Positions 2,846 to 47,353 of a stretch of DNA of 54,025 nucleotides are shown here, piece by piece. Location of the stretch: positions 1 through 54,025 of the IMG/VR virus record IMGVR_UViG_3300028840_006481. One strand, written 5' to 3'. Numbering within the stretch: position 1 is the stretch's first letter; every line of letters starts with the position of its first letter. The notes under the pieces are model-generated. The model worked only from the letters and a program-made list of their open reading frames with translations, was not told where the DNA came from and searched no databases. The position numbers and the translations under genes are program-made. The DNA comes from a virus.

Positions 2846-3067
2846 GTGACGTGGATTCCCGTCGATTGGCTCTTTGAAGCTAGCAGGCTAAGAACCAGAA
2901 GTGGTCGGCGGGAAGCCCTTGGTTTTGGAGGTACGACTCGGGACAAGATTGGATTTGAGAAAAAGGGTAAGCGAAAAATTGTTCCAAAACGGAAGAGACC
3001 AAAACGACGGCTCGGCGATTTGCTTGCCCGCTCTCCTTTTCGATCAAGTGCCATAAGGTCAGGGTGA
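2846..3067 (+). CDS. Small basic protein with protease-site leader (73 aa), probable internal head protein
   Basis: The product is very basic (many K and R after residue 12). It begins MTWIPVDWLFEA, almost the same as the MNWIPLDELFEQ start of the protein at 7977. In both, L9-F10-E11 fits the P3-P1 rule of T4-type prohead protease (L/I-x-E), here followed by A12. Cleavage would leave a ~62-residue basic peptide, like the basic internal proteins of T4 heads. The GTG start is chosen because it gives the shared N-terminus; the SD is weak and translation is probably coupled to the gene ending at 2843. Function beyond this is unknown. Confidence 0.6.
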   Translation: MTWIPVDWLFEASRLRTRSGRREALGFGGTTRDKIGFEKKGKRKIVPKRKRPKRRLGDLLARSPFRSSAIRSG

Positions 3068-3071
3068 ACGG

Positions 3072-4661
3072 ATGGCTACTCTACTCATCGATACAATGCC
3101 TCTTACTTTTGAGTTGCAGGAATCAACTGAAAAAGGAAAGCTTGGCAAGGTTGTTGCTCGTGGTCCATATGCTCGCAGTGATAAGGCGACTGAAAATAAG
3201 CGTCTGTACAGAAAGCATTTGTGGGATCGCGAAATCAACCGAAAACTCGAAGATATGAATATGCGTCGATGCTTTGGTGAGCTCGATCACCCTGCCGATG
3301 GGCGCACCAAGCTACAACGTGTTAGTCATTTACTTACTGGCTTGAATGTCGAGGGCAACGAGGTCATTGGTGAATCTGAAATTCTGGACACTCCAAATGG
3401 TCGTATACTAAAGACTATTATGGAGGCTGGGGCTCAGGTTGGTGTAAGCAGCCGGGGCTATGGTTCAACGAAAACGCTTCCTGATGGAACCGAAGAAGTA
3501 CAAGAGGATTTCAAACTCGATACTTTCGATTTCGTCGCGGACCCTGCTACGCGTTCGGCGTATCCGCAGGTGTTCCATGAGGAGCTACAGCGGATACCAG
3601 AGGGAGAGAATATGCTAACCGTCGAGGAACTAAAGAAAAACTATCCTGGCTTAGTCGAGGAGATGACATCTGGCGTGTTGGCAGAAGCCGAGCGCCGTGT
3701 TGAAGAGCGTTTGACTGAAAAATTTTCTACCGAGCTTCGTCGAAAGATGGAGCAGATTGATGGAGCTGCTGAAGAACGTGTAAGGAGTGAGTACCTGAGT
3801 GATCCAGAGATAGCAGGTGCAAAGCAAGTTCTTGAGCGTATCGCTTCGATGGTAACGAGTTTTGCCAGTCCAGTAGTTCACCAACAAGAGTTGGCGTCGA
3901 GAGATGAGCGTATTGCTAAATTGGAAGGCGATTTAGCTGAGCGTGAACTCGAGGTACAGAAAATCAAAAAAGAACATGATGAGATGGCTGTTATTGCGAA
4001 AGAGGCAGCGTATCGGCTTCATATTGAGCGCAAGATTGCTGGTCATTCTTCGCGTGATGCCATTGTAAAACTCATTGGAAAGATAGACCAATATGACAGC
4101 ATTGAAGCTCTTGATGAACGTATTGAAGTTCTTCAAAAAGAGCTTTCGTCGGCCAAAGACGAACATATTGGTGAAGAAGAAGAAGCCAAGAGCGAACTTC
4201 TCGATAAAATCAGCTCGCTTGAACAGCGTGTTGAGAAGGCCGAAGAACGAGCTGAAGAAGCCAAAAAGAAAATCAAAGAAGCTGATGATCGTACAAGAAA
4301 AGCTCTTGATTTAGCAGAACATGTACAGGTAGCTTCTTACGTTGAAAGCATTATCCAACATCACCCTGATGGTGAAGAACTTCAAGAACTTTGTGAAGGC
4401 GCCAACTCGGTGTCAGAAGTAGATAGAATCGTTCGATCTCATGGGCGCCGTAGCAGCGGCGGTCGTGTTCGTGACGAAGATGAATCTGAAAGAATCCGCG
4501 CTCGTCTTGGGCGTGGAAAACAGCGGTCATTAGAAGAAGATACTTTTGGTGCGCCGCGCAAAAAATCAGGCAATGGCCAGCAAGGCGCTACGCTGGATGA
4601 CTTCGGGCTCACCGAGCAAGAATTCGATGAGCTGGCTGGAACGGGGAATCTGACCTCGTAG
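3072..4661 (+). CDS. Prohead protease-scaffold fusion (T4 gp21-like protease, S80 type)
   Basis: Residues 1-175 form a T4 gp21-type maturation protease. The GELDHP motif puts the catalytic His at 73, GVSSRGYGS puts the catalytic Ser at 126/127, and FDFVADPAT lies near 155, as in the family. Residues 181-529 are a long Glu/Lys-rich coiled-coil like a scaffold or core protein (T4 gp22 role). The join at 175-178 reads IPEG, itself a match to the protease cleavage rule. T4 encodes the two functions as separate genes; here they are one polypeptide of 529 residues. The gene lies directly before the capsid gene. The scaffold part should fill the prohead, and the protease should then cleave scaffold, capsid protein and any leader-bearing cargo. 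Confidence 0.9.
   Translation: MATLLIDTMPLTFELQESTEKGKLGKVVARGPYARSDKATENKRLYRKHLWDREINRKLEDMNMRRCFGELDHPADGRTKLQRVSHLLTGLNVEGNEVIGESEILDTPNGRILKTIMEAGAQVGVSSRGYGSTKTLPDGTEEVQEDFKLDTFDFVADPATRSAYPQVFHEELQRIPEGENMLTVEELKKNYPGLVEEMTSGVLAEAERRVEERLTEKFSTELRRKMEQIDGAAEERVRSEYLSDPEIAGAKQVLERIASMVTSFASPVVHQQELASRDERIAKLEGDLAERELEVQKIKKEHDEMAVIAKEAAYRLHIERKIAGHSSRDAIVKLIGKIDQYDSIEALDERIEVLQKELSSAKDEHIGEEEEAKSELLDKISSLEQRVEKAEERAEEAKKKIKEADDRTRKALDLAEHVQVASYVESIIQHHPDGEELQELCEGANSVSEVDRIVRSHGRRSSGGRVRDEDESERIRARLGRGKQRSLEEDTFGAPRKKSGNGQQGATLDDFGLTEQEFDELAGTGNLTS
3612..4661 (+). CDS. Internal in-frame start for a free scaffold protein
   Basis: Inside the protease-scaffold gene an ATG at 3612 is preceded by AGGGAG at 3601-3606, five bases away, an ideal Shine-Dalgarno layout. 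It is in frame and begins exactly where the coiled-coil scaffold part begins (residue 181). It would make a 349-residue free scaffold, like the nested scaffold Nu3 within phage lambda gene C. That the start is used is inference from site quality and domain position. Confidence 0.5.
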   Translation: MLTVEELKKNYPGLVEEMTSGVLAEAERRVEERLTEKFSTELRRKMEQIDGAAEERVRSEYLSDPEIAGAKQVLERIASMVTSFASPVVHQQELASRDERIAKLEGDLAERELEVQKIKKEHDEMAVIAKEAAYRLHIERKIAGHSSRDAIVKLIGKIDQYDSIEALDERIEVLQKELSSAKDEHIGEEEEAKSELLDKISSLEQRVEKAEERAEEAKKKIKEADDRTRKALDLAEHVQVASYVESIIQHHPDGEELQELCEGANSVSEVDRIVRSHGRRSSGGRVRDEDESERIRARLGRGKQRSLEEDTFGAPRKKSGNGQQGATLDDFGLTEQEFDELAGTGNLTS

Positions 4662-7563: not shown

Positions 7564-7962
7564 ATGGATATTGAGCGAGTCAACTCGGTGCTTTCTAAGG
7601 CTATTCTTGGTCTTCAGGAAAGCGAGATTGAAACGATGACTGAGGCATTGAATCCTGATGTACCTGTGTTTCAGGTCGTTTTTGCCAAGAGCACCAAAAG
7701 AATGCTTGGGCGAAAGCTCAAGACTCTGAGCCCGGACAGGTGGTATGTTTTTGGTGTTGGTCCTGGTGTTGGCCCTCATGGTGAGCCGGTGAGATTTGGT
7801 CCGTATAAAAGCGAGGATAACGCAAAAAAAGAAGCGAATGCAATGGCCAAAAATGTTGACGGAAGAGTGCTTAAGAAGATAGAGATGAATTTTCAAAAGG
7901 CCATTGGTCGTTTTGCACATTTGGGTAGCAAAATGTCTGGTCCTTCTGAATACGATGTTTAG
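7564..7962 (+). CDS. Leader-family protein 1 (132 aa), predicted capsid-targeted cargo
   Basis: It starts with the leader MDIERVNSVLSKAILGLQES, which recurs in six further genes up to 12251. The leader is amphipathic and ends at M25-T26-E27|A28, close to the gp21 cleavage rule. The remaining ~105 residues form a compact, basic alpha/beta domain (RWYVFGVGPGVGPHGEPVRF then a helix) of unknown family. The ATG at 7564, after GAAAGGAG, is chosen because it gives the family N-terminus. If cleaved, the mature protein would begin ALNPDVPVF. Predicted to be packed in the prohead; this is inference. Confidence 0.65.
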   Translation: MDIERVNSVLSKAILGLQESEIETMTEALNPDVPVFQVVFAKSTKRMLGRKLKTLSPDRWYVFGVGPGVGPHGEPVRFGPYKSEDNAKKEANAMAKNVDGRVLKKIEMNFQKAIGRFAHLGSKMSGPSEYDV

Positions 7963-7976
7963 TAGTTGGGATTGAT

Positions 7977-8501
7977 ATGAATTGGATTCCGCTTGATGAG
8001 CTTTTTGAACAGGCTAAGATTGGCGGTTATCGTGTGCCTACTCCTGCTGAGTTAAAAAAGAAAATCGAGAAAAAGAAAGAAAAGAAGGCAGATGTAAAAC
8101 CACCAAAGAGGAAAGCAAAAAAAGCGGCTCGTGGTGGATTGCGCAAGAAGCCACCAAAGCAGAAACCCAAACCAGGTGGGATAAAGGCCAAGGCTAAAGT
8201 CGATCAGGTGCCTGCTCAGTTGCAGCATTGTGTATTGGCAGTACGAGGAGGCAAGCCAAGCAAGAAAGGCGGAAAGCCTCAAAAAAAACATAGCACTAGG
8301 GCGGCGTGGAACATATGTCGTTGGGCGTTGACGAGGTATGGGTACCTCAAACCCCCCTATAAAAAAGGCGCTAAATTGAGCAGTGTAAGGCAGACTCAAA
8401 AAGGTGTGCGGCGTACGATGAAGCATGCGATGGAACCAGAAGCGCCGGCTAAATACAAACGGTTCAAGGATTTGTTCCGTGAAATCGAGCCAACGGTGTA
8501 G
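7977..8501 (+). CDS. Basic leader-bearing protein with Cys-containing C-terminal domain (174 aa)
   Basis: The start MNWIPLDELFEQAKIGG matches the gene at 2846 and has L9-F10-E11 at the same place, though Q follows instead of A. YRVPTP follows at about residue 19, the same VPxP motif found behind the other leaders. Residues ~27-75 are Lys/Pro-rich. The C-terminal ~100 residues hold two Cys (QLQHCVLAVRGG and RAAWNICRWAL), similar in spacing to small phage domains with a Cys pair. The high positive charge suits DNA binding inside the head. Function not known. Confidence 0.6.
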   Translation: MNWIPLDELFEQAKIGGYRVPTPAELKKKIEKKKEKKADVKPPKRKAKKAARGGLRKKPPKQKPKPGGIKAKAKVDQVPAQLQHCVLAVRGGKPSKKGGKPQKKHSTRAAWNICRWALTRYGYLKPPYKKGAKLSSVRQTQKGVRRTMKHAMEPEAPAKYKRFKDLFREIEPTV

Positions 8502-14897: not shown

Positions 14898-15592
14898 TGA
14901 GCGCAAGAACTGGCATTGTTTTTCTTAGAGACTATGATGAAGGATTGGTGCGCACTATGGGTGCAGAACTGATCGAAATCGAGCTCGATGGAGAGACAGT
15001 GCAGGATTACGCGATAGCTATCGAAGGAGTTCTTGGTCCTGATTTGTATGGTGGTCATGTTCCTGTTATTTGGCAAAATCCAGAGGATGTGTATCAAGAA
15101 GGATTGATTCCTCATGTGGCTGTTTCACGTACGGCAGTGACGATAGCAATGAATCGATGGTTTCCAGGTGGCCACGAATACAGAACACCATCTGCGACTT
15201 CTCATTTGGTAACGGCAGGCAATGGGGTTCAGGGACCGTCAGCGTTGGAGTTCAAGGCTTGGGCGTACCCGTATGATATTTCTTACGAAATTCATATAAG
15301 AGCAAGACAAAGAGCTCAGGCTGATTTGATGCTCAGACAGATCGGTCAAAAGTTTTGGGCGTATGGGCAGATTTATTTGATTGATTCTGAGGGAGAGCAA
15401 CGAGGATACTATGCTTTCCAAGAATCTCTTGATTCCCTTGATGAGGTAGCCGATGTTGCTGATCGAATGATTGGCTGGACGATATCTCTGAGATGTGAAG
15501 CTGAACTTGACTTCAACGATCCTTATATCGCTCCTACTTCGCCAAATGTTGAAACAAGTGTAGAGCCTAAATCGTCATTGGCGGGAGAGTGA
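14897..15592 (+). CDS. Probable tail terminator/sheath stabiliser (T4 gp15-type candidate, 231 aa)
   Basis: The protein is mixed alpha/beta, with GGHVPVIWQNPEDVYQ followed by a long beta-rich middle and YPYDISYEIHIRARQRAQAD leading into a helix. It ends in strands (GWTISLRCEAELDFNDPY). The layout and the YPYDI-type strand fit tail-terminator proteins that cap the tube/sheath near the neck. Placement between connector genes and the sheath agrees. The ATG at 14897 is four bases after AGGAG; the GTG at 14894 is too close to it. Confidence 0.5.
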   Translation: MSARTGIVFLRDYDEGLVRTMGAELIEIELDGETVQDYAIAIEGVLGPDLYGGHVPVIWQNPEDVYQEGLIPHVAVSRTAVTIAMNRWFPGGHEYRTPSATSHLVTAGNGVQGPSALEFKAWAYPYDISYEIHIRARQRAQADLMLRQIGQKFWAYGQIYLIDSEGEQRGYYAFQESLDSLDEVADVADRMIGWTISLRCEAELDFNDPYIAPTSPNVETSVEPKSSLAGE

Positions 15593-19348: not shown

Positions 19349-19365
19349 TTTGAGTGAGGTGTAGT

Positions 19366-19767
19366 ATGAAGAAGTTAGCAGAGGAGTTGTTGGGGATTCT
19401 TGCAGAGTCCCGAGGTGAAAACAAGGACGGCTCACTTCGAGAGGATGAGCCTGATTTTGAAGAAGGGCCACTCTGTGAGGACACCAAAACTCCCTGTTGG
19501 CATCTTCAGGAAGCAGCTCAGTTCGTCGCTGAGGACATGGCTGAGGTAACTGGCCTTGATGCTGAAAAGCTTTCTGTGGCACTCACAGAAGCCATGAAAT
19601 GTGACCATGGGTGTGGTGAAAAGTATCGCACTTCTAAAGGTGATTTCAAGGGCGGAAAGGGCGAGGCTTTCAAAACTTGTGAGCAGTATGCTAAGGACTG
19701 TTGTACAGGTGTGAGAGATCCAGCGGCTTTCTGTGCTTATTTAGGAAGACGTGCAGGTAAGGTTTAA
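19366..19767 (+). CDS. Small Cys-rich protein with LAE-type leader (133 aa)
   Basis: It starts MKKLAEELLGILAES; L12-A13-E14|S15 fits the prohead protease rule. The body is acidic, then has nine Cys, with a C-terminal domain (CGEKYRTSKGDFKGG, then TCEQYAKDCCTG and PAAFCAYLGRRAG) like the C-terminus of the gene at 9730. The ATG at 19366 follows GTGAGG. Possible internal protein, but it lies beyond the sheath, so an unrelated role cannot be excluded. Confidence 0.6.
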   Translation: MKKLAEELLGILAESRGENKDGSLREDEPDFEEGPLCEDTKTPCWHLQEAAQFVAEDMAEVTGLDAEKLSVALTEAMKCDHGCGEKYRTSKGDFKGGKGEAFKTCEQYAKDCCTGVRDPAAFCAYLGRRAGKV

Positions 19768-19777
19768 AAACAACAAC

Positions 19778-19798
19778 GGGCAATTGATTGCCTATTTT
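19778..19798 (+). terminator. Weak rho-independent terminator candidate
   Basis: GGCAA (19779-19783) pairs with TTGCC (19788-19792) around TTGA, followed by TATTTT. The stem is short (5 bp plus a possible GU), so it may only attenuate transcription between 19767 and 19814. Confidence 0.4.
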
Positions 19799-27286: not shown

Positions 27287-28135
27287 ATGACTGTTCATTT
27301 GGCAGAAAATACAACAGTAGGAGTCAATTTTAAGTTTGCTGCTGGGCAGGTGACAGCTTCTGTTTCTTCATTAAAAATAGAGGTAGCGAGTTTTAAGTAT
27401 GACATTGGTGGTGATCGTGGTTTGTTTGTAGGTGCTGTAGATCAATCTGTTACTGACGATGATACAAGTTATGTCTACCTAAACAAGAATGGTACTCTTG
27501 TTATAAACACAACTGGGTTTCCGAGTGACACACATATTCCTTTGGCAAGAGTTGTTGCTACAAACGGAGAAATTGTTGCAATTATTGAAGAACGTGTTTT
27601 GTTGGCTAGTTCTTCGTCCGCGATTGGGACGTGTCGAATTAGTTATCCTGTTGATGGTGATATCAGAGGAGGTCAAACATCTGCGAGTTCGAATAATGAT
27701 TATGCTGCCGTTAGATATGATGGAACGCCTAACACAGACACAGGTCGTAACAGATGGAATCGTCGACCGCCACAGAATTATGTAAGCGGAAATGTCGTAT
27801 TGCGTATTTGGTATTCGTGGGCAGTTGCACCATCTAACAATGACACGATTATCCTTGAGTGGCTGTGGTCTTTTCGTAGTTCAGGTGAGGCGCTTGGATC
27901 GTGGGATGACAGCGATCAACAATCTTTTGAGGTCGATACAGAAAACTCTGATACTCTTTATTATAAAGATTTGACAATGCCTGGAGAAGATATGGATATT
28001 GATGCAGACCTTATGTTTATGAAATTCCAACGTAGAACAGATTTGAGCGGTGATGATTGCGACGAAAACATGTATGTGCATGACGTAGAATTACAGTATA
28101 CGGGATATCTCGTTGCTGGACAGCCAGGGCAGTAA
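27287..28135 (+). CDS. Putative fibre-tip or receptor-binding protein (282 aa)
   Basis: All-beta, rich in aromatic and Asn/Asp residues (RIWYSWAVAPSNNDTIILEW, LWSFRSSGEALGSW), as in carbohydrate-binding jelly-roll heads. The first ~110 residues resemble fibre attachment modules. It starts one base after the previous stop and lies in the fibre cluster just before the polymer hydrolase. Function inferred from context and composition only. Confidence 0.55.
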   Translation: MTVHLAENTTVGVNFKFAAGQVTASVSSLKIEVASFKYDIGGDRGLFVGAVDQSVTDDDTSYVYLNKNGTLVINTTGFPSDTHIPLARVVATNGEIVAIIEERVLLASSSSAIGTCRISYPVDGDIRGGQTSASSNNDYAAVRYDGTPNTDTGRNRWNRRPPQNYVSGNVVLRIWYSWAVAPSNNDTIILEWLWSFRSSGEALGSWDDSDQQSFEVDTENSDTLYYKDLTMPGEDMDIDADLMFMKFQRRTDLSGDDCDENMYVHDVELQYTGYLVAGQPGQ

Positions 28136-28159
28136 AATGCCTAAGAAGGGTTAGTAAAA

Positions 28160-29053
28160 ATGTCTGAGATTGACATCCTTAAGGCAAAGGTTGAACAAGA
28201 CTATTTAATTGGTCATGGTGAGCGTATCTCCATGGACCCAGAATTGGCATCTGATAACAATGTCAGCGTAGGTCAGCAGGTTAGGATTGGTGTAAAAGAG
28301 AAAAAAACTGATCCGAAGGCTTATGGGATCTATACAGTTTATGCCTTCATGGATGATGGTACGGACGACAATGATGTCCGTATGGCTTATGATGGTCGTC
28401 AACGACTCAATGAGAGTGATAGTTTTGATGGTATTTTATCTGGATGTGATCAGGTGGTAGTTCATGGAAAAGACGAGTCTTGGTTGAATGACAATGATGA
28501 ATTTGGTGAGTTTTTGGACGAGTCTAGTATATCGCATTCAAATATTGCTTTTTGTGCTCCTCATGGTGGTGTGATTGAAACAAGAACTGACGAAATGGCA
28601 AAGCATGCTTTTGACAGTCTTGTTGCGGCTGGAAAGGATGTAACTTGTTGGCGTTGTATTGGACACCAGGACGAGGTTGGAGGTTACGATGCGTGGCATA
28701 TAACTTCTACTGAGATTAGTCGAAAAAGTTTTCCATATCTCGACCAAATAGGAGATAGAGGTTTCGAGAATGTGGTCAGTTTTCATGGTTATGGAGAGGA
28801 TGAAATTGCTGTTGGTGGTGGTGCTCCTACCGCGATCAAGCAAGCTATCGTAGATGCTATTTCGGCTATCGATGGGCTTTCGTATGATGTGACAATTGTT
28901 ACAAGTGGTTCATATGCTGGAGTTTCTCCTGATAATTTCGTGAATTGGCTTTCGCTCAATGGTGGCGGTGGAATTCAGATTGAGATTCCGTATGGTGCTC
29001 GTGTAAATCATTGGCAAGCGATTGCTGAAGCTGTGGCATCTGTGTTTGTATAA
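28160..29053 (+). CDS. Poly-gamma-glutamate hydrolase-type enzyme (PghP/DUF867 family, 297 aa)
   Basis: Motifs of the family occur in order: NIAFCAPHGGVIETRTDEMA (H135, E140), AWHITSTEI (H180), and ENVVSFHGYGED (H209), followed by AVGGGAPTAIKQAI. Members are zinc peptidases that cut gamma-glutamyl bonds in poly-gamma-glutamate, letting phages cross such capsules. The N-terminal ~60 residues include a strand-rich part (NNVSVGQQVRIGV) usual for the family. No signal peptide. Its place among fibre genes suggests that it is mounted on the virion or released at lysis. Substrate is inferred from family. Confidence 0.82.
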   Translation: MSEIDILKAKVEQDYLIGHGERISMDPELASDNNVSVGQQVRIGVKEKKTDPKAYGIYTVYAFMDDGTDDNDVRMAYDGRQRLNESDSFDGILSGCDQVVVHGKDESWLNDNDEFGEFLDESSISHSNIAFCAPHGGVIETRTDEMAKHAFDSLVAAGKDVTCWRCIGHQDEVGGYDAWHITSTEISRKSFPYLDQIGDRGFENVVSFHGYGEDEIAVGGGAPTAIKQAIVDAISAIDGLSYDVTIVTSGSYAGVSPDNFVNWLSLNGGGGIQIEIPYGARVNHWQAIAEAVASVFV

Positions 29054-29156
29054 TGATTTGTGTTTGTTTTGGAGCAAGCCAGAAAATTTGTTAAGTTATG
29101 TAAAAAGTTGAAGTTTTTTTGGTACTCTAATCGTTGAGCGGCAGGGTATATCAGAG

Positions 29157-31213: not shown

Positions 31214-31243
31214 GTTTCGTCCTAATAGTAGGAGGGACGAAAC
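31214..31243 (+). promoter_or_regulatory. Hairpin presenting the Shine-Dalgarno site of the 31244 gene
   Basis: GTTTCGTCC (31214-31222) and GGACGAAAC (31235-31243) are perfect inverted arms of nine bases. The 12-base loop TAATAGTAGGAG holds most of the SD (AGGAGGG at 31230-31236), and the downstream arm ends exactly before the ATG. In RNA this would either display or block the SD. There is no U-run after it, so it is not a terminator. Translational control is inference. Confidence 0.6.
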
Positions 31244-31615
31244 ATGACAAACGCCATTGAGAACATTCAGGATCTTGCCGATTTAGTCGAAGAAATTAGC
31301 ATCCGTCGTTCAGATGGGTTTGATGATCAATTCAACAATTTGGTATCGCTTATTTTGACTGGTGAGCAACTGCGCGATCAGCTTTCTGAGGTAGAGTGTA
31401 ATTCAGCTACTCTTAGGGCTGAGGCTGATGTTGAACTGTATGAGATCGTCGCAGGTCAGGTATCCATAGATGTGTATTGGGCTCTCAGAGAAGCCACTGA
31501 GGCGGCTTCAGACGAGGATTTCGATGATGAGCATGAGCTGGAATATCTTAGGCGCGGCATTGGTGTTATTAGGAAAGAGCGTATCGAGTGGGCTGTGAGA
31601 CGTTTGACGAGATAG
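31244..31615 (+). CDS. Hypothetical helical protein (123 aa)
   Basis: Acidic, mostly helical (IENIQDLADLVEEISIRR; ELEYLRRGIGVIRKERIEWA). No family recognised. It has its own hairpin-borne SD, so its translation may be tuned separately from the fibre genes. It faces a leftward gene whose stop is at 31618. Confidence 0.6.
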   Translation: MTNAIENIQDLADLVEEISIRRSDGFDDQFNNLVSLILTGEQLRDQLSEVECNSATLRAEADVELYEIVAGQVSIDVYWALREATEAASDEDFDDEHELEYLRRGIGVIRKERIEWAVRRLTR

Positions 31616-31833: not shown

Positions 31834-31861
31834 ATTGTATAATATAATAAGCGTCTGTCAA
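31834..31861 (-). promoter_or_regulatory. Leftward promoter, island copy 1
   Basis: On the minus strand TTGACA (31861-31856) and TACAAT (31839-31834) are 16 bases apart, with the start of RNA expected near 31827, just before the SD and ATG of the gene at 31812. The -35 sits in the repeat CTTGACAGACGCTTAT, shared with two other leftward promoters. The element downstream (TTGATAGAC at 31866) is an imperfect inverted copy. Confidence 0.7.
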
Positions 31862-31902
31862 GATATTGATAGACTTTTTTTGAGATTTTTTTGGTTGAGG
31901 TG

Positions 31903-32103
31903 TTAGTTGAGATGTTTTTTGTAAGGTTGGTTTTTCTTTTCTTTTTTGGCTAGATAGAGTGCGTATTTGCACCTATCTACGATATGGTCTCCCACATCGT
32001 AATTTTTCGCTAGCTGTAGCGCTAGCAGGGCGTCGTAACGCCCTTTTTTTGGCTTCGAGAGCAATCTCTCGATTATTCTCAAGGCCGTTTTCTTTACATC
32101 CAT
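31903..32103 (-). CDS. Small basic protein, DUF2786-region relative (66 aa)
   Basis: Read leftward from 32103 after AGGAGGGG. The core (RYDALLALQLAKNYDVGDHI) resembles the helix pair of the neighbouring DUF2786-like protein (ALQLAK is shared), so the two are probably distant duplicates. The C-terminal part is Lys-rich. It has its own promoter (copy 2). The gene contains a rightward terminator at 32027-32050. Function unknown. Confidence 0.65.
   Translation of the reverse strand: MDVKKTALRIIERLLSKPKKGRYDALLALQLAKNYDVGDHIVDRCKYALYLAKKEKKNQPYKKHLN
32027..32050 (+). terminator. Rightward rho-independent terminator inside a leftward gene
   Basis: AGGGCG (32027-32032), loop TCGTAA, CGCCCT (32039-32044) and then TTTTTT (32045-32050) form a textbook terminator for rightward transcription. 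It lies within the leftward coding sequence at 31903-32103, where it still encodes KKGRYDALL. It would stop transcripts coming through the convergent junction from the late genes. Confidence 0.75.
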
Positions 32104-32132
32104 GGCGACCCCTCCTTTGTCTCCATGATTAT

Positions 32133-32161
32133 AATATAATACTATGATAAGCGTCTGTCAA
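32133..32161 (-). promoter_or_regulatory. Leftward promoter, island copy 2
   Basis: On the minus strand TTGACA (32161-32156) and TATATT (32138-32133) are 17 bases apart. It shares CTTGACAGACGCTTAT with copies 1 and 3 and stands before the gene at 32103. A facing TTGACA at 32166-32171 completes a TGTCAA..TTGACA operator-like pair. Confidence 0.65.
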
Positions 32162-32222
32162 GATATTGACAAACTTTTTTTACAATATGTTTTGGTTGTA
32201 ACAAAACGATTGAAATACGAAT

Positions 32223-32251
32223 CTTGACAGACGCAAAAATAATTTGTCAAG
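32223..32251. promoter_or_regulatory. Orphan operator-like inverted repeat
   Basis: CTTGACAGACGC begins at 32223 and TGTCAAG ends at 32251, giving 7-base inverted arms 15 bases apart. It repeats the half-site of the island promoters, but no -10 stands at the right distance in either direction. It may be an extra protein-binding site or a decayed promoter. Confidence 0.4.
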
Positions 32252-32403
32252 ACGGGTTTTGGATTCAAAATCGCTTAAGCGGGAGAAAAAATTTTTTTGC
32301 TTCCAACTGGTCGTATTTTATTGTGTTTGTGATCTTGGGTAATTTTTGAAGATTTTAGACGCTAAGAAGTATCTTGTACTATAAGATAATGTGATCGGGA
32401 GGT

Positions 32404-32425
32404 GTGGGAGGAGTTCTCCTCCCAC
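32404..32425. terminator. Perfect hairpin just past the leftward 32437 gene
   Basis: GTGGGAGGAG (32404-32413) and CTCCTCCCAC (32416-32425) are perfect inverted arms. It lies 11 bases beyond the stop of the leftward gene, where a terminator or 3'-end stabilising hairpin would be expected. No T-run follows on either strand, so termination is uncertain. Confidence 0.4.
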
Positions 32426-32436
32426 TTCGTGAGTTA

Positions 32437-33327
32437 TTATTCGAGGTCTTCTATGGTGTTTCGAATTGCTTCCTCTGTGTTGATGAGAACGATATTGTGA
32501 TCAGAGGCTTCTTGCTCGACATCCTCAACGGCTTTGAGGATGTCTTCATCTGTTGCTTTTTTTGTCAATCCTAATGATTCAGCCACTTCCTCAGCTCTTT
32601 GGTTGTTTCTGAGCCAGTCAGAAGCCTGCCAGTGATCTAGGGTTCCTTTTTTTGTTCGTCGTGTCTCTATGATGTCGTCATCGAGATAATCGTCAGGACC
32701 TTCGACGACCTCTGTGTATCCGAGCTCGTTTGCTTTTTTTTGGGCGTCTTCGAGTGTAGAGAATTCGCCGAATGCATGAGAATGGTTATCGTTGGTGTTA
32801 CCCAACCAACCTTCTGAACACTCTTCACCACTCAGGTTTTTACATCCTGGGGTGGTTTGAATGACCAGCTCGCCGTCTTCAGGGTTGTTTTCCCAATCGA
32901 AATTATAATCGTTTCTTGGTCCAACATATGTATTGACAATCACATAATAATATTGTTTTATTTCTTTTTTCCACTGTTCTATCCAGGGCGTTATGTCGCC
33001 ATCGATAATGCATTCCTCGATAACGTCTTCGAGTTGGCCGACTATTCGGCCTTGATCTTCGTGGTATTCTCCAGTTACCACGTAAGACTCGATTTCTTCA
33101 TTCCAGCTAACGAATCCATTTGTGAATTCGTTGCTGTTTAAGTTCCCGATCCCTGGGGTTTTTAAAACGGCGACGCATCCCTCAAGATCGTCGGGATGCA
33201 AAGACTCAGAACTACTGAGTTTTTCAATAGTTCCGTTTTTGAACACATGAATTTTTGAGCCAGCTTCTTCGTCAAGAAGAATCTGTCTAGCCAGCTCGTT
33301 CCAGTTGATAGAATCAAAAAGTGTCAT
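32437..33327 (-). CDS. Hypothetical leftward protein (296 aa)
   Basis: Read from 33327 after AAGGAGG. Acidic; N-terminal ~75 residues may form a small domain (KIHVFKNGTIEKLSSSESLH). The middle holds WIEQWKKEIKQYYYVIVNTY and a GELVIQTTPGCKNLSGEECS segment. A DAQKKANELGYTEVVEG motif suggests a small alpha/beta fold, and the end is helical and acidic. Its own promoter (copy 3) and leftward direction suggest expression at another time than the virion genes. No family recognised. Confidence 0.7.
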   Translation of the reverse strand: MTLFDSINWNELARQILLDEEAGSKIHVFKNGTIEKLSSSESLHPDDLEGCVAVLKTPGIGNLNSNEFTNGFVSWNEEIESYVVTGEYHEDQGRIVGQLEDVIEECIIDGDITPWIEQWKKEIKQYYYVIVNTYVGPRNDYNFDWENNPEDGELVIQTTPGCKNLSGEECSEGWLGNTNDNHSHAFGEFSTLEDAQKKANELGYTEVVEGPDDYLDDDIIETRRTKKGTLDHWQASDWLRNNQRAEEVAESLGLTKKATDEDILKAVEDVEQEASDHNIVLINTEEAIRNTIEDLE

Positions 33328-33352
33328 ATCTAATCCTCCTTGTTACAATTAT

Positions 33353-33381
33353 AATGTAATACAATAATAAGCGTCTGTCAA
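33353..33381 (-). promoter_or_regulatory. Leftward promoter, island copy 3
   Basis: On the minus strand TTGACA (33381-33376) and TACATT (33358-33353) are 17 bases apart, before the gene at 33327. Its -35 lies in a perfect palindrome shared with the rightward promoter at 33386. Confidence 0.7.
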
Positions 33382-33394
33382 GACCTTGACAGAC
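33373..33394. promoter_or_regulatory. Perfect palindromic operator between divergent promoters
   Basis: GTCTGTCAAG (33373-33382), AC, CTTGACAGAC (33385-33394): ten-base arms without mismatch. It covers the -35 of both the leftward and the rightward promoter, so one dimeric regulator could control both. The half-site CTTGACAGACG recurs at the other island promoters. Confidence 0.65.
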
Positions 33395-33414
33395 TTTTTT
33401 CATGGTATTATGTT
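33386..33414 (+). promoter_or_regulatory. Rightward promoter of the 33438 gene group
   Basis: TTGACA (33386-33391) and TATGTT (33409-33414) are 17 bases apart, with the RNA start expected near 33421 and an SD (GGAGGGAG) before the ATG at 33438. It likely drives the small genes 33438-34490. Confidence 0.6.
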
Positions 33415-34197: not shown

Positions 34198-34490
34198 ATC
34201 TTAACGGAGAAATAAGAATAGTTGTATTGTCTCGTGGATGGATCTATATCGGAAAATGTTATTGTACAGATCTTGGTCAAACATTTCGCATAGATCAAGC
34301 TTACAATATAAGGAGGTGGGGAACTGAAAGAGGATTAGGGCAAATTGCCATAAATGGACCAACAGAAAATACAGTCCTTGATTTTTATGGAGAGATTGAA
34401 TTAGAACCCATAAATGTTCTTCATACTATTGTTTGTGATGAAGAGAAATGGAGTGAACACTATAAAGCGAAAAGGAAGTTTGATGATTAG
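34194..34490 (+). CDS. Conserved-type small phage protein (98 aa)
   Basis: MNLNGEIRIVVLSRGWIYIG, then AYNIRRWGTERGLGQIAING and a CDEEKW near the end. The IRRWGT-x-RGLG-x-IA pattern is one I know from small phage proteins of unknown function. It starts by ATGA overlap with the frameshifted gene and ends inside the SD/start region of the repeat gene that follows. Confidence 0.65.
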   Translation: MNLNGEIRIVVLSRGWIYIGKCYCTDLGQTFRIDQAYNIRRWGTERGLGQIAINGPTENTVLDFYGEIELEPINVLHTIVCDEEKWSEHYKAKRKFDD

Positions 34491-34608
34491 TTTTGCAGAC
34501 ATTGCTGTGACTGGAGATTGTGTTGAGTCTGAATTTTCCAATGATTGGGTTTTGGTTAATTTGATATACTTAAAACATCGAATTTTTCTAAACGATTATG
34601 GCAATAGC
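34472..34608 (+). repeat. 137-base perfect direct repeat, copy A
   Basis: Identical to 34874-35010. It covers the SD, the start codon and the first ~42 codons of the Gly-X repeat gene. Perfect identity means recent duplication or continuing gene conversion. Confidence 0.9.
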
Positions 34609-34866
34609 AATGGCTATGGCGATGGCGATGGCTATGGCAATGGCAATGGCTATGGCTATGGCGATGGCGATGGCTATGGCAATGGCAATGGCTATGGCTA
34701 TGGCGATGGCGATGGCTATGGCAATGGCGATGGCTATGGCAATGGCAATGGCTATGGCGATGGCAATGGCAATGGCAATGGCAATGGCTATGGCGATGGC
34801 AATGGCAATGGCGATGGCAATGGCAATGGCGATGGCGATGGCTATGGCAATGGCAATGGCTATTAG
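34483..34866 (+). CDS. Gly-X repeat protein A (127 aa)
   Basis: The first ~40 residues (MISFADIAVTGDCVESEF, then SNDWVLVNLIYLKHRIFLND) form a unique part, followed by ~85 residues that alternate Gly with N, D or Y without exception after the first repeat. The DNA is a hexamer array GGCNAT in which N is A, G or T. The start overlaps the previous stop and has AAGGAAG upstream. Gly at every second place suggests an extended beta or silk-like fibre; an adhesin tip or phase-variable surface is possible. No family recognised. Confidence 0.6.
   Translation: MISFADIAVTGDCVESEFSNDWVLVNLIYLKHRIFLNDYGNSNGYGDGDGYGNGNGYGYGDGDGYGNGNGYGYGDGDGYGNGDGYGNGNGYGDGNGNGNGNGYGDGNGNGDGNGNGDGDGYGNGNGY
34595..34865 (+). 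repeat. GGCNAT hexamer array A
   Basis: About 45 tandem six-base units, nearly all GGC followed by AAT, GAT or TAT; CAT is not seen. The array has no stop in any rightward frame except its final TAG. The order of AAT/GAT/TAT units shows longer sub-repeats of 30-60 bases. Confidence 0.9.
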
Positions 34867-34873
34867 CTATGGC

Positions 34874-35010
34874 AAGGAAGTTTGATGATTAGTTTTGCAG
34901 ACATTGCTGTGACTGGAGATTGTGTTGAGTCTGAATTTTCCAATGATTGGGTTTTGGTTAATTTGATATACTTAAAACATCGAATTTTTCTAAACGATTA
35001 TGGCAATAGC
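34874..35010 (+). repeat. 137-base perfect direct repeat, copy B
   Basis: Identical to 34472-34608. See copy A. Confidence 0.9.
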
Positions 35011-35232
35011 GATGGCTATGGCTATGGCAATGGCAATGGCAATGGCAACAGCTATGGCAATGGCTTTGGCGATGGTTATGGCGATAGTGTTGGCGATGGC
35101 TATGGCGATGGCGATGGCTATGGCAATGGCAATGGCTATGGCGATGGCAATGGCAATGGCGATGGCGATGGCTATGGCGATGGCTATGGCGATGGTTATG
35201 GCGATAGCGATGGTGATGGCGGTAAAATGTGA
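34885..35232 (+). CDS. Gly-X repeat protein B (115 aa)
   Basis: It has the same first 42 residues as protein A (perfect DNA repeat), then a Gly-X array of different length and order with a few variants (NS, GF, DS, SV). It ends GDGGKM. The ATG at 34885 is the equivalent start; a TTG three bases upstream is in frame. The two genes are tandem duplicates whose arrays have diverged in unit order, as expected from slippage or unequal recombination. Confidence 0.6.
   Translation: MISFADIAVTGDCVESEFSNDWVLVNLIYLKHRIFLNDYGNSDGYGYGNGNGNGNSYGNGFGDGYGDSVGDGYGDGDGYGNGNGYGDGNGNGDGDGYGDGYGDGYGDSDGDGGKM
34997..35222 (+). repeat. GGCNAT hexamer array B
   Basis: About 37 units, less pure than array A: GGCAACAGC, GGCTTTGGC and AGTGTTGGC interruptions and GGTTAT variants occur. 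Unit order differs from array A after the shared first units. Confidence 0.85.
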
Positions 35233-35364: not shown

Positions 35365-36021
35365 ATGCCGTCTTATTCGACGCCGTCAACCAATCTCAGC
35401 ACAGGGCTTAGCACTAAACCAACTCGTTTAATCCCTGATTACCTGGCAAAGAATCAAAATTATCTTCCTCTTTCTGTGTTTTTTGCTGGGATACCAGAAC
35501 AAGAAGCTGATCCGGATTCACTTTTTGGTCTAAGAATGCCTGAGCGAAAAAAGAAAGGGGAACCCAAGCAAAAGAAAACCAAAGGCGGCAATACGAGTGG
35601 CGAGAATGACCCAAAGCAAAAAAGTGATGACGAGGATACCTCTGAAAAAAAGGGAGCTCAGAAAGGCTCTGAGGGGCCTCAGCGCTCGCAAACATCGAAA
35701 CAACGACCACAGTCATCTGTTCCAGCTCGTACGTCTCAGGCTGGTACTCATGCTCAAGGCGCAACACAACAGGGGGCGCAACAGCAAGAGGTGTTTATGA
35801 AGGACATGAGCCATGGATTGGCAGTTCTTCTTGATATGGCTCTAAACGGGCAATCAGTTGCCCGTTCTGAAATGACTACGACAGCGAATGTCCCAACTTT
35901 GCCAGTGCCTATTGGGGCTGGTGATGGTCGAAAATTTCTCGATCGACCAGGTGATACCAAGAGAAAAAAGAAAAAGAAGAAGTCATTGAGTCGTAGTCTT
36001 TATATTTTATTGAGGAGATAG
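35365..36021 (+). CDS. Hypothetical low-complexity protein (218 aa)
   Basis: The N-terminal ~55 residues are followed by a long Lys/Glu/Gln/Ser-rich stretch (KQKKTKGGNTSGENDPKQ and on). A short conserved-looking segment (MKDMSHGLAVLLDMALNGQS) lies near residue 150, and the end is a basic KKKKKK tail. No family recognised. It is expressed from its own promoter and stands directly before the tail chaperone, so it may be a tail assembly factor, but nothing in the sequence proves it. Confidence 0.6.
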   Translation: MPSYSTPSTNLSTGLSTKPTRLIPDYLAKNQNYLPLSVFFAGIPEQEADPDSLFGLRMPERKKKGEPKQKKTKGGNTSGENDPKQKSDDEDTSEKKGAQKGSEGPQRSQTSKQRPQSSVPARTSQAGTHAQGATQQGAQQQEVFMKDMSHGLAVLLDMALNGQSVARSEMTTTANVPTLPVPIGAGDGRKFLDRPGDTKRKKKKKKSLSRSLYILLRR

Positions 36022-45226: not shown

Positions 45227-47353
45227 ATGACTGAGCCGCTTGCTATTGAGTCGCCTCAAGCGAACATTAATCGCGCAAGATTTGCTGGAAAAGATTTTTT
45301 CACATTTGTTGATGATCTGATTGCAAGAATTCAGTTGCTTTTTGTAAATGAATTCAATGATTTTGTAACAAGTGGCACCGGTCAGATGCTTATCGATATA
45401 GTATCGTGGGCATGTGAGACATTGAGTTTTTACATTGATCGCCAGGCTGCTGAGAGTTATCTTGAGACGGCAAAATTAAGACGATCAATCAATCGTCTTT
45501 GTCGCCAACTTGGTTACAAAATGGCTCCGGCGACTGCTGCCTCTGCTGATCTCAGTGTAAATCTTAAGGAAGTTTGGTCTTTTGATGTAAAGGTTCCTGT
45601 TGGTTTTCAGTTTCAGGGGCCGAACGAATTGACTTTTGAGGCTACAGAAGAAGTAACTTTTCCAGCAGGCGAGGGGCCGACGAGTCCGTCAAGAACTGTT
45701 GCGACTCGTGAGGGTGTTACGAAGATTGAAAAATTCAAAAGTGATGGTGAAAAAAATCAGGTTTTTCGTATTGGTACATCTGAGGGAAAATGGGTTGCCG
45801 AGGGCACTGTATCTGTAACTGTAGCTGGAGCCCCTTGGGTTGAAAGCCGATTTATCACTTATGATGCAACGGATCAGTATGAAATCGATTACAATATGAT
45901 CCCTCCTTTGATTCGGTTCGGCGATACTGCCGCTGGCAATGTTCCTGCTGTTGGTGCTGACATTGTCGTGACTTATGTTGAGACATCTGGCGAAAGTGGT
46001 CTCGTAATGCATGATACCATTCAGGATGTTGTAAGTCCTCTCGTGGTTGCATTCACAGATATCGGGCTCACTATCACGAATCCAGATCCATCGGCTGGCG
46101 GAGCTCCTCCTGAATCGTTGGAATCGGCTCGAAGAAACGCTCCTCTTTATTTTGCAGCTAGAAACGTTGCTGTAGTGCAGTCGGATTATGTTTCTCTTTC
46201 TGAGGCATACACAGATCCTGTAGCTGGTTCAGTAGCAGTGGCTCAGGCTTTTGTAGCACTTGGTGCTGAGGATGATTTAACACTTAAAGAATTATTGGAT
46301 AATATCAGGTTGATCGTTGGTCCTCTTTCGACTGAAATCCAGGGTTATGTTACGCAAGCCGAATCGGATCTTTCAGAGATTTCTGATCTTCGAGACAATG
46401 CTGCGTCAGAGAACAGTGATATTGGAACGGCTTTGACCAATATTGGGACTGCAAAAGATACAGCTATTTTGAGAACAGAGGATGCTCAAGGCGAAAACAT
46501 AAAAATAGAGGGTGATGTATCGGCAGCACTTGCATATATTGGTACGTGGTCGACTGGTTCAACACAAATCCAAGATCCTGAGCTGACGTCAATTCAAAAT
46601 TATCTCAATTCTATCAACACAAAAGCTGGTGCGGCGCAGGGGTATGGTGATGATGCCATTACCCAGCTTGTGAATATTGGCAACGAAAAGGATGACGGTG
46701 ATGTTGCGCAGGCTCAAGTTGCCTCTGATTTGACTGCAATGACCCCTTATATAACAAGCATAGAAACGGAACTCGACAACATCAATACAGCTATTACATC
46801 TGGTTTTGAGACAGCTATCGAAACGGAGCTACAAGACATCTATGATCATGTAGATGGATTTTTAGCTGATACTTGCAAGAGCAATCTTGTGCAAGTTCCT
46901 ATTCTTGCTTATGATGCTGATGGGTTCTATACGGCTCCTCCTATTGCATTAATGCGATCGCTTGAAAGTTACTTGAGAGCTCGCTGTGAAGTAACTCAAG
47001 TGGTCGAAGTTGTTTCCGGTGAGCCTTATCTTGTGGCTGCTGTGATTGAGGGGGTTATTGGTATTATTGAAGGGTATGTTCAGCCTACTGTTCTTTCGAA
47101 TGTCAGAAAATCAATAGGAGATTTGCTCAAGAATCGGCGGTTTGGTAATAGCCTGCGGCTCGGTGATGTATATTCGTCGATTCAACCAGATCCAACAACT
47201 GGAGTGGGTGGAATCGAAGGTGTTGAGTATGCTTCATTCACAATTACAGGTCCAGCAAGTTTTCTTAACGCTAGAGGCAACCTTGTTATCACGAAGGAAT
47301 ACGTGATTACTCTTGGATCGCTCACTCTTACAGGCGAAACGGCGGTGGATTGA
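45227..47353 (+). CDS. Baseplate wedge protein (gp6/GpJ-like, 708 aa)
   Basis: The N-terminus (GTGQMLIDIVSWACETLSFY, then IDRQAAESYLETAKLRRSIN) and the LESARRNAPLYFAARNVAVV segment, then QSDYVSLSEAYTDPVAGSVA match the baseplate J/gp6 family. Residues ~365-545 are an inserted helical stretch with repeats (SDIGTALTNIGTAKDTAILR and relatives) that looks like a coiled-coil. The C-terminal part (RFGNSLRLGDVYSSIQ and on) resumes the family pattern. It makes the wedge ring of the baseplate. Confidence 0.85.
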   Translation: MTEPLAIESPQANINRARFAGKDFFTFVDDLIARIQLLFVNEFNDFVTSGTGQMLIDIVSWACETLSFYIDRQAAESYLETAKLRRSINRLCRQLGYKMAPATAASADLSVNLKEVWSFDVKVPVGFQFQGPNELTFEATEEVTFPAGEGPTSPSRTVATREGVTKIEKFKSDGEKNQVFRIGTSEGKWVAEGTVSVTVAGAPWVESRFITYDATDQYEIDYNMIPPLIRFGDTAAGNVPAVGADIVVTYVETSGESGLVMHDTIQDVVSPLVVAFTDIGLTITNPDPSAGGAPPESLESARRNAPLYFAARNVAVVQSDYVSLSEAYTDPVAGSVAVAQAFVALGAEDDLTLKELLDNIRLIVGPLSTEIQGYVTQAESDLSEISDLRDNAASENSDIGTALTNIGTAKDTAILRTEDAQGENIKIEGDVSAALAYIGTWSTGSTQIQDPELTSIQNYLNSINTKAGAAQGYGDDAITQLVNIGNEKDDGDVAQAQVASDLTAMTPYITSIETELDNINTAITSGFETAIETELQDIYDHVDGFLADTCKSNLVQVPILAYDADGFYTAPPIALMRSLESYLRARCEVTQVVEVVSGEPYLVAAVIEGVIGIIEGYVQPTVLSNVRKSIGDLLKNRRFGNSLRLGDVYSSIQPDPTTGVGGIEGVEYASFTITGPASFLNARGNLVITKEYVITLGSLTLTGETAVD

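Follow-up and report, generated by a model that had tools for sequence, protein, structure and literature searches.

Phage accessory genes that carry their own promoter and terminator are known as morons. PeSLs were reportedly described in phage RB49. The PeSL cassettes of the T4-type phages are presented as units that combine a promoter with a stem-loop (Arbiol 2010, cited in PMC4503421). In the cluster A mycobacteriophages, the repressor binds 20–30 asymmetric sites without dyad symmetry, and a block of both initiation and elongation has been proposed for this operator/stoperator system (PMC6550527, PMC9283540).

The window discussed here is the whole of a 54,025-base virus record, which represents an uncultured tailed phage with a contractile tail. 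Its genes are otherwise directed rightward, and amid those of the structural region three leftward open reading frames, each with a good ribosome-binding site, form an island. Like the morons, the island genes are small, have no assigned function and carry their own signals inside a structural operon. Unlike the morons, they are counter-oriented, stand three in a row and share one repeated cassette, in which the promoter and the putative terminator are fused. The likeness to the T4-type PeSLs lies in the short repeated unit of a sigma70-type promoter and a terminator-like stem-loop, placed among the accessory genes of a myovirus; the two elements occur together in three copies in the window and in one copy in a near-identical record. 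The tandem geometry of the PeSLs is not seen in the window cassettes. In a scan of RB49, hairpin and promoter form a tandem with the hairpin on the upstream side, its start typically 37–41 nt before the -35, and none of the 175 promoter-like sites has a terminator over the -35, whereas the stem in the window includes the -35 and would terminate against the leftward promoter. The window cassette therefore has the idea of the PeSL in common with it, not the geometry. In 1.04 Mb of other DNA, mostly phage, none of 249 strong TTGA promoters overlaps a terminator-like hairpin of at least 8 bp. As in the cluster A system, a single short word is present at promoters and at non-promoter places; the differences are that only six sites occur here, that the cassettes contain dyads and a hairpin with a U-tract, and that no repressor was found.

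The phage and its relatives

The rightward genes include those for the capsid, protease, tail sheath, tape measure and baseplate proteins. The tail sheath and baseplate matches indicate a myovirus, and the matches of the baseplate wedge include T4-like phages at about 25% identity. A search with the DNA returned no matching phage record, and the short DNA matches were at chance level. The near-identical record, referred to below as the twin (IMG/VR 3300018080_000203, G001; 58,921 bases), corresponds to window positions 1–31913 except for about 27.3–29.1 kb, and reaches 26.5 kb farther upstream than the window. The twin stops just past the first cassette, and therefore a single cassette can be compared between the two records. 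Within the exception, window positions 27306–29088 have no DNA match in the twin while both flanks match at about 98%; accessory or tail-associated genes have likely been replaced here recently.

Two further relatives (L108, from a 100,682-base record, and L109) show 70–74% identity in a neighbouring protein. At the locus of the island they carry different small genes, directed rightward, with TTGACA promoters and no palindrome, as would be expected for an exchangeable accessory region; no exchange junction at a cassette is seen. The 13-mer TCTTGACAGACGC, which recurs in the island, is missing from both records even when one mismatch is allowed, and the dyad is missing from nine more relatives, most of which lack coverage of the island. 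The relatives found through the capsid protein stop short of the island, and neither a capsid scan of genome_contigs nor scans with the tape measure and with the third leftward gene yielded any relatives. The pattern TCAANNNCTTGACAGACGCNTAT occurs in IMG/VR only in the near-identical record and in genome_contigs not at all. A looser cassette pattern gave 80 matches, about the number predicted by chance, and a perfect match in contig L027 was set aside as its sequence context is unrelated.

The leftward genes and their promoters

Gene 1 (P0002; 31618–31812, minus strand) encodes 64 amino acids and is weakly DUF2786-like (Pfam E = 1.2e-4, with 22.4 bits under the curated cut-off of 23.9). Its coding status is backed by an in-frame, whole-codon (three-base) indel relative to the twin. 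Gene 2 (P0003; 31903–32103, minus strand; 66 amino acids) is a paralogue of gene 1, with 39% identity over 33 amino acids in a single BLASTP comparison (E = 9e-6). Gene 3 (P0001; 32437–33327, minus strand; 296 amino acids) has no match over the cut-off in Pfam, partial matches in two plasmid hypothetical proteins and an uninformative predicted structure (pLDDT 35). PHROGs, NCBIfam and PADLOC give no family for any of the leftward genes, and the proteins encoded by genes 1 and 3 are without a match among phage records. Just past the stop codon of gene 3, a strong hairpin on the minus strand (GTGGGAGGA-GAAC-TCCTCCCAC, 32404–32425; -17.5 kcal/mol, z -4.1) lacks a T run and is a possible 3′ end of the leftward RNA. 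The first rightward gene after the island (P0004; 33438–33635, plus strand; 65 amino acids, ribosome-binding site AGGAGGGAG) has no assigned function.

The minus strand of the window holds three exact copies of the repeat CTTGACAGACGCTTAT (31847–31862, 32147–32162 and 33367–33382) and the plus strand none, with a chance expectation of about 5e-5 per 80 kb. Each copy contains the -35 of a promoter-like site matching 10–11 of the 12 bases of the sigma70 consensus, by which the promoters were called. These are TTGACA-16-TACAAT for gene 1 (31834–31861), TTGACA-17-TATATT for gene 2 (32133–32161) and TTGACA-17-TACATT for gene 3 (33353–33381), all on the minus strand. At 33373–33394, the perfect 10+2+10 palindrome GTCTGTCAAG-AC-CTTGACAGAC covers the -35 of the gene 3 promoter and, on its other arm, that of a rightward promoter (TTGACA-17-TATGTT, 33386–33414, plus strand). 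The first-pass annotation had been right in placing the TTGACA-type promoters of three leftward genes in one repeat, in describing this palindrome over two opposed -35 boxes and in assigning to the genes promoters of their own inside the late region. Since the leftward genes bear host-type promoters within the structural region, their expression outside the late programme is plausible, and the resemblance to host promoters makes early expression plausible as well. The lysogeny-like or stress control also put forward there finds no support here.

Dyads are present at the three leftward promoters and at the rightward one, the second arm matching at 8 of 10 positions at sites 1 and 2, the cassettes before genes 1 and 2. 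Among 25 promoter-like sites in about 80 kb, a mirrored -35 arm of at least 8 is restricted to the island promoters, and the others reach 3–6. The cassette extends over about 50 bp, and its flanks are unrelated between the copies. When the copies are aligned, the conserved block consists of A6–7 (T6–7 on the plus strand), the dyad, GCTTAT and the -10 region, beyond which the flanks diverge; the repeat word itself runs into the promoter spacer (GACGC). A DNA-inversion site was also considered as a reading of the palindrome, because its core is 2 bp. Another site, 3196–3211, with two mismatches to the word, lies within coding sequence and was taken as chance.

Terminator-like hairpins at the cassettes

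On the plus strand, T6–T7 directly follows the dyad at all three promoters and in the copy of the twin, a feature which had gone unremarked in the first-pass annotation. The dyads of the cassettes fold on this strand as a 9-bp stem with a 4-nt loop. At site 1, the hairpin GTCTGTCAA-GATA-TTGATAGAC-T7 (31853–31881; -11.5 kcal/mol, z -3.4) has nine pairs, one of them G-U, and overlaps the -35 of gene 1. The weakest copy is site 2, where GTCTGTCAA-GATA-TTGACAAAC-T7 (32153–32181; -7.0 kcal/mol, z -1.9) contains one C-A mismatch and overlaps the -35 of gene 2. Site 3, GTCTGTCAA-GACC-TTGACAGAC-T6 (33373–33400; -12.7 kcal/mol, z -3.5), is the perfect palindrome and overlaps both the leftward and the rightward -35. 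The site 1 copy of the twin, GTCTGTCAA-GACA-TTGACAGAC-T6, has a perfect stem (-13.4 kcal/mol, z -3.7). Sites 1 and 3 were picked up by a general terminator scan of the plus strand, and site 2 by a scan allowing one mismatch. The cassettes have the GC-containing stem and the immediate U-tract of intrinsic terminators, weakly so at site 2, and for RNA polymerase moving rightward the dyad with its T run resembles such a terminator. If the dyad were an operator, the T run beside it would not be required. The run could have an alternative role on the leftward strand, as an A tract upstream of the -35 acting as an UP element.

A fourth inverted pair, CTTGACA...TGTCAAG at 32223–32251, folds with -10.3 kcal/mol. 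It exists without a promoter, as had been described; its assignment as an operator fares less well, because it is 83% identical over 54 bp to a terminator-like hairpin from the upstream region of the twin and is thus more likely a variant or decayed rightward terminator.

Antisense hairpins within the leftward genes

In a mechanical scan, genes 2 and 3 together contain six rightward terminator-like hairpins, and the sense direction contains none. In gene 2, they lie on the plus strand at 31978–32001 (10 bp with one mismatch and the tail ATTTTTCG), at 32024–32047 (core AGGGCGT-CGTA-ACGCCCT, then T) and at 32055–32072. The last two are found by an energy-based score as well and are the only ones common to both methods, the first being missed by it. 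In gene 3, the mechanical scan places three on the plus strand (33036–33051, 33110–33131 and 33209–33233), which the energy-based score misses, giving in their place 32479–32508 and 32526–32555.

When synonymous codons were shuffled such that the protein and the codon use were preserved, the mean number of rightward hairpins was 1.1 versus the six observed, and none of 400 shuffles reached six. The energy-based score points in the same direction, with none of 60 shuffles attaining the observed sum. For the rightward genes, the density of terminator-like hairpins is 0.18 per kb on either strand. The window has 14 perfect hairpins of at least 8 bp, and these too are dense in the island, where 4 of them lie. 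For the leftward reading frames, the surplus of antisense terminator-like hairpins is only suggestive, because the choice of the island preceded the design of the test.

The repeat word outside the island

The 13-mer TCTTGACAGACGC (reverse complement GCGTCTGTCAAGA) has six exact occurrences in about 80 kb, where 0.003 are expected; four are in the island and two lie upstream in the twin. One of the two upstream copies supplies the -35 to a dyad-free promoter in front of a structured RNA. The other lies in a hairpin stem with T5 behind it, where the half-sites are in the reverse arrangement; it is this hairpin to which the inverted pair at 32223 is similar. The recurrence of the sites elsewhere in the genome, suggested as a check of the regulon proposal, holds for the word and fails for the dyad at the outside promoter. 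Termination alone does not explain a 13-base word shared by sites of differing architecture, which could be accounted for by a protein that reads the word or by descent of the elements from one another.

The search for a regulator gene, suggested likewise, gave two HTH genes in the upstream region of the twin, neither of which is linked to the sites. One encodes an XRE and sigma-70 region 4 fusion (G001 'up' 7935–8480, reverse complement of the contig; Pfam HTH_3 1.3e-8, Sigma70_r4 3.6e-12), the other an HTH_26 protein. The word nearest to an HTH candidate is that in the dyad-free promoter of the structured RNA, about 280 bp before that gene.

The structured RNA is about 137 nt long (G001 L094:5815-6040, minus strand; about 45815–46040 of IMG/VR 3300018080_000203) and has the promoter CTTGACAGACGCTCC..TAGATT. 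It possesses a tRNA-like T arm (CAGGG-TTCGACT-CCCTG) and an acceptor-like stem, followed by a strong terminator, and a long helix replaces the anticodon arm. ARAGORN and Rfam at the gathering threshold return nothing for it, and it has no phage match.

A proposed promoter-terminator cassette and the alternatives

The repeat is explained here, with moderate confidence, as a composite promoter-terminator cassette that insulates counter-oriented accessory genes from rightward (late) transcription. Read leftward, the cassette would provide a strong host-type (sigma70) promoter for the accessory gene. Read rightward, the dyad and the T run would stop the RNA polymerase arriving from the structural genes, and further rightward stops would occur at the hairpins within genes 2 and 3. 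At 33373–33394, the 3′ arm of the terminator would double as the rightward -35, such that rightward transcription is stopped and then restarted, and the restart at 33386–33414 would serve the rightward genes from 33438 on. As a net effect, the genes lying against the direction of the operon would be insulated, which we infer to be the selective benefit, and could be turned on without dependence on the late genes, probably before them, with less antisense RNA over them. This explanation is supported by the T run inside the conserved block, by the stem and loop present in all copies, by the lack of any such overlap at the 249 promoters of other DNA, by the surplus of antisense hairpins, by the different island of the two relatives and by another terminator-like family dispersed in the same phage. 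Against it stand the C-A mismatch and the weak fold of the site 2 stem. Antisense RNA would, moreover, already have run through a leftward gene on reaching a terminator at the 5′ end of that gene, so that such a terminator would protect the next gene, not its own. The word in the spacer, at a dyad-free promoter and in a second hairpin is likewise left unexplained by termination.

The single dimeric regulator of the first-pass annotation, which by occupying the -35 would shut or open the three leftward promoters and the rightward one, is an unlikely explanation. The perfect 22-bp dyad lies on the -35 and its arms are kept at 8–10 of 10 positions in four copies; the excess of the word, one copy of which marks a promoter upstream in the twin, and the two HTH genes of that region, including the fusion protein, also agree with such an operator. 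The T run beside the dyad is conserved too, however, the mirrored -35 occurs at no other promoter of the phage, the sites are missing from the relatives and no regulator is tied to them. Moreover, one dimer could not bind all sites alike, because the outside promoter is dyad-free and the half-sites at 32223 are opposite, the hairpins holding them in reverse arrangement. What stands of this proposal is the recurrence of the word outside the island; the palindrome is explained equally well or better by termination, and its role is more likely that of an insulating terminator, either in place of a repressor site or in addition to one. A monomeric repressor of the cluster A type, binding TCTTGACAGACGC at promoters and stoperators, with the dyads as two overlapping sites, would fit an asymmetric 13-mer without fixed spacing that is found at promoters and non-promoter sites alike. 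It is considered decidedly improbable, as three of the only six sites are copies of one cassette, versus 20–30 sites in cluster A (PMC6550527), and no repressor of this type was noticed. It is improbable, too, that the cassettes are mainly recombination sites through which accessory genes are swapped, with no selected insulation. Such a role would suit the three copies of about 50 bp with unrelated flanks, the cassette shared by the paralogous genes 1 and 2 and by the unrelated gene 3, and the wholly different island of the relatives, yet it leaves the additional terminator-like hairpins within the coding sequences unaccounted for; it is also compatible with the composite promoter-terminator explanation. 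The palindrome might finally be a by-product of back-to-back -35 boxes at 33373 and of a duplication of the promoter region, in which the second arm has no role. Both arms at 33373 are indeed -35 boxes, but the second arm is kept with the T run even where no -10 accompanies it, as at sites 1 and 2, which makes this origin very hard to credit.

A general anti-interference design, in which the stem of the opposing terminator includes the -35 and further terminators lie antisense to the gene's own coding sequence, is a tentative and rather doubtful extension of the composite promoter-terminator explanation. If true, it would let a phage gene sit against the grain of the late operon. The cassette itself would illustrate how about 50 bp, by fusing a promoter with an opposing terminator, can keep an independently controlled gene inside an oppositely transcribed operon. 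It also cautions against taking every palindrome found over a -35 box in raw sequence for an operator, since a T run adjacent to it on the opposite strand is a sign of a terminator. Whether coding sequences are enriched in antisense terminators is testable across phage genomes purely by computation, and the idea that these protect counter-oriented genes would gain in interest if it proved valid in other phages.

Other features of the window and the twin

A dispersed palindromic element, AAACGGGCAATYRRTTGCCYRTTTT, is present in four copies, mostly intergenic, at 19775–19798 and 35844–35866 of the window and at G001 'up' 15370–15393 and 19350–19378. It is possibly a family of bidirectional terminators. 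The copy at 'up' 19350 is followed by a promoter-like site, in a PeSL-like arrangement. In the same upstream region, putative genes of nucleotide metabolism (G001 'up' 3000–3626 and 3836–4267) resemble PurH/IMP cyclohydrolase and dCMP deaminase, as judged from translations read by eye. At 34472–35220 of the window, two tandem copies, 91% identical over 347 bp, form a stretch of a gene built of TATGGC/AATGGC/GATGGC repeats; weak matches to Rfam miRNA families there look like artefacts of composition. Directly before the start codon at 31244, a nine-bp inverted repeat (GTTTCGTCC...GGACGAAAC, 31214–31243) holds an AGGAG ribosome-binding site in its loop and is a possible hairpin for the control of translation.
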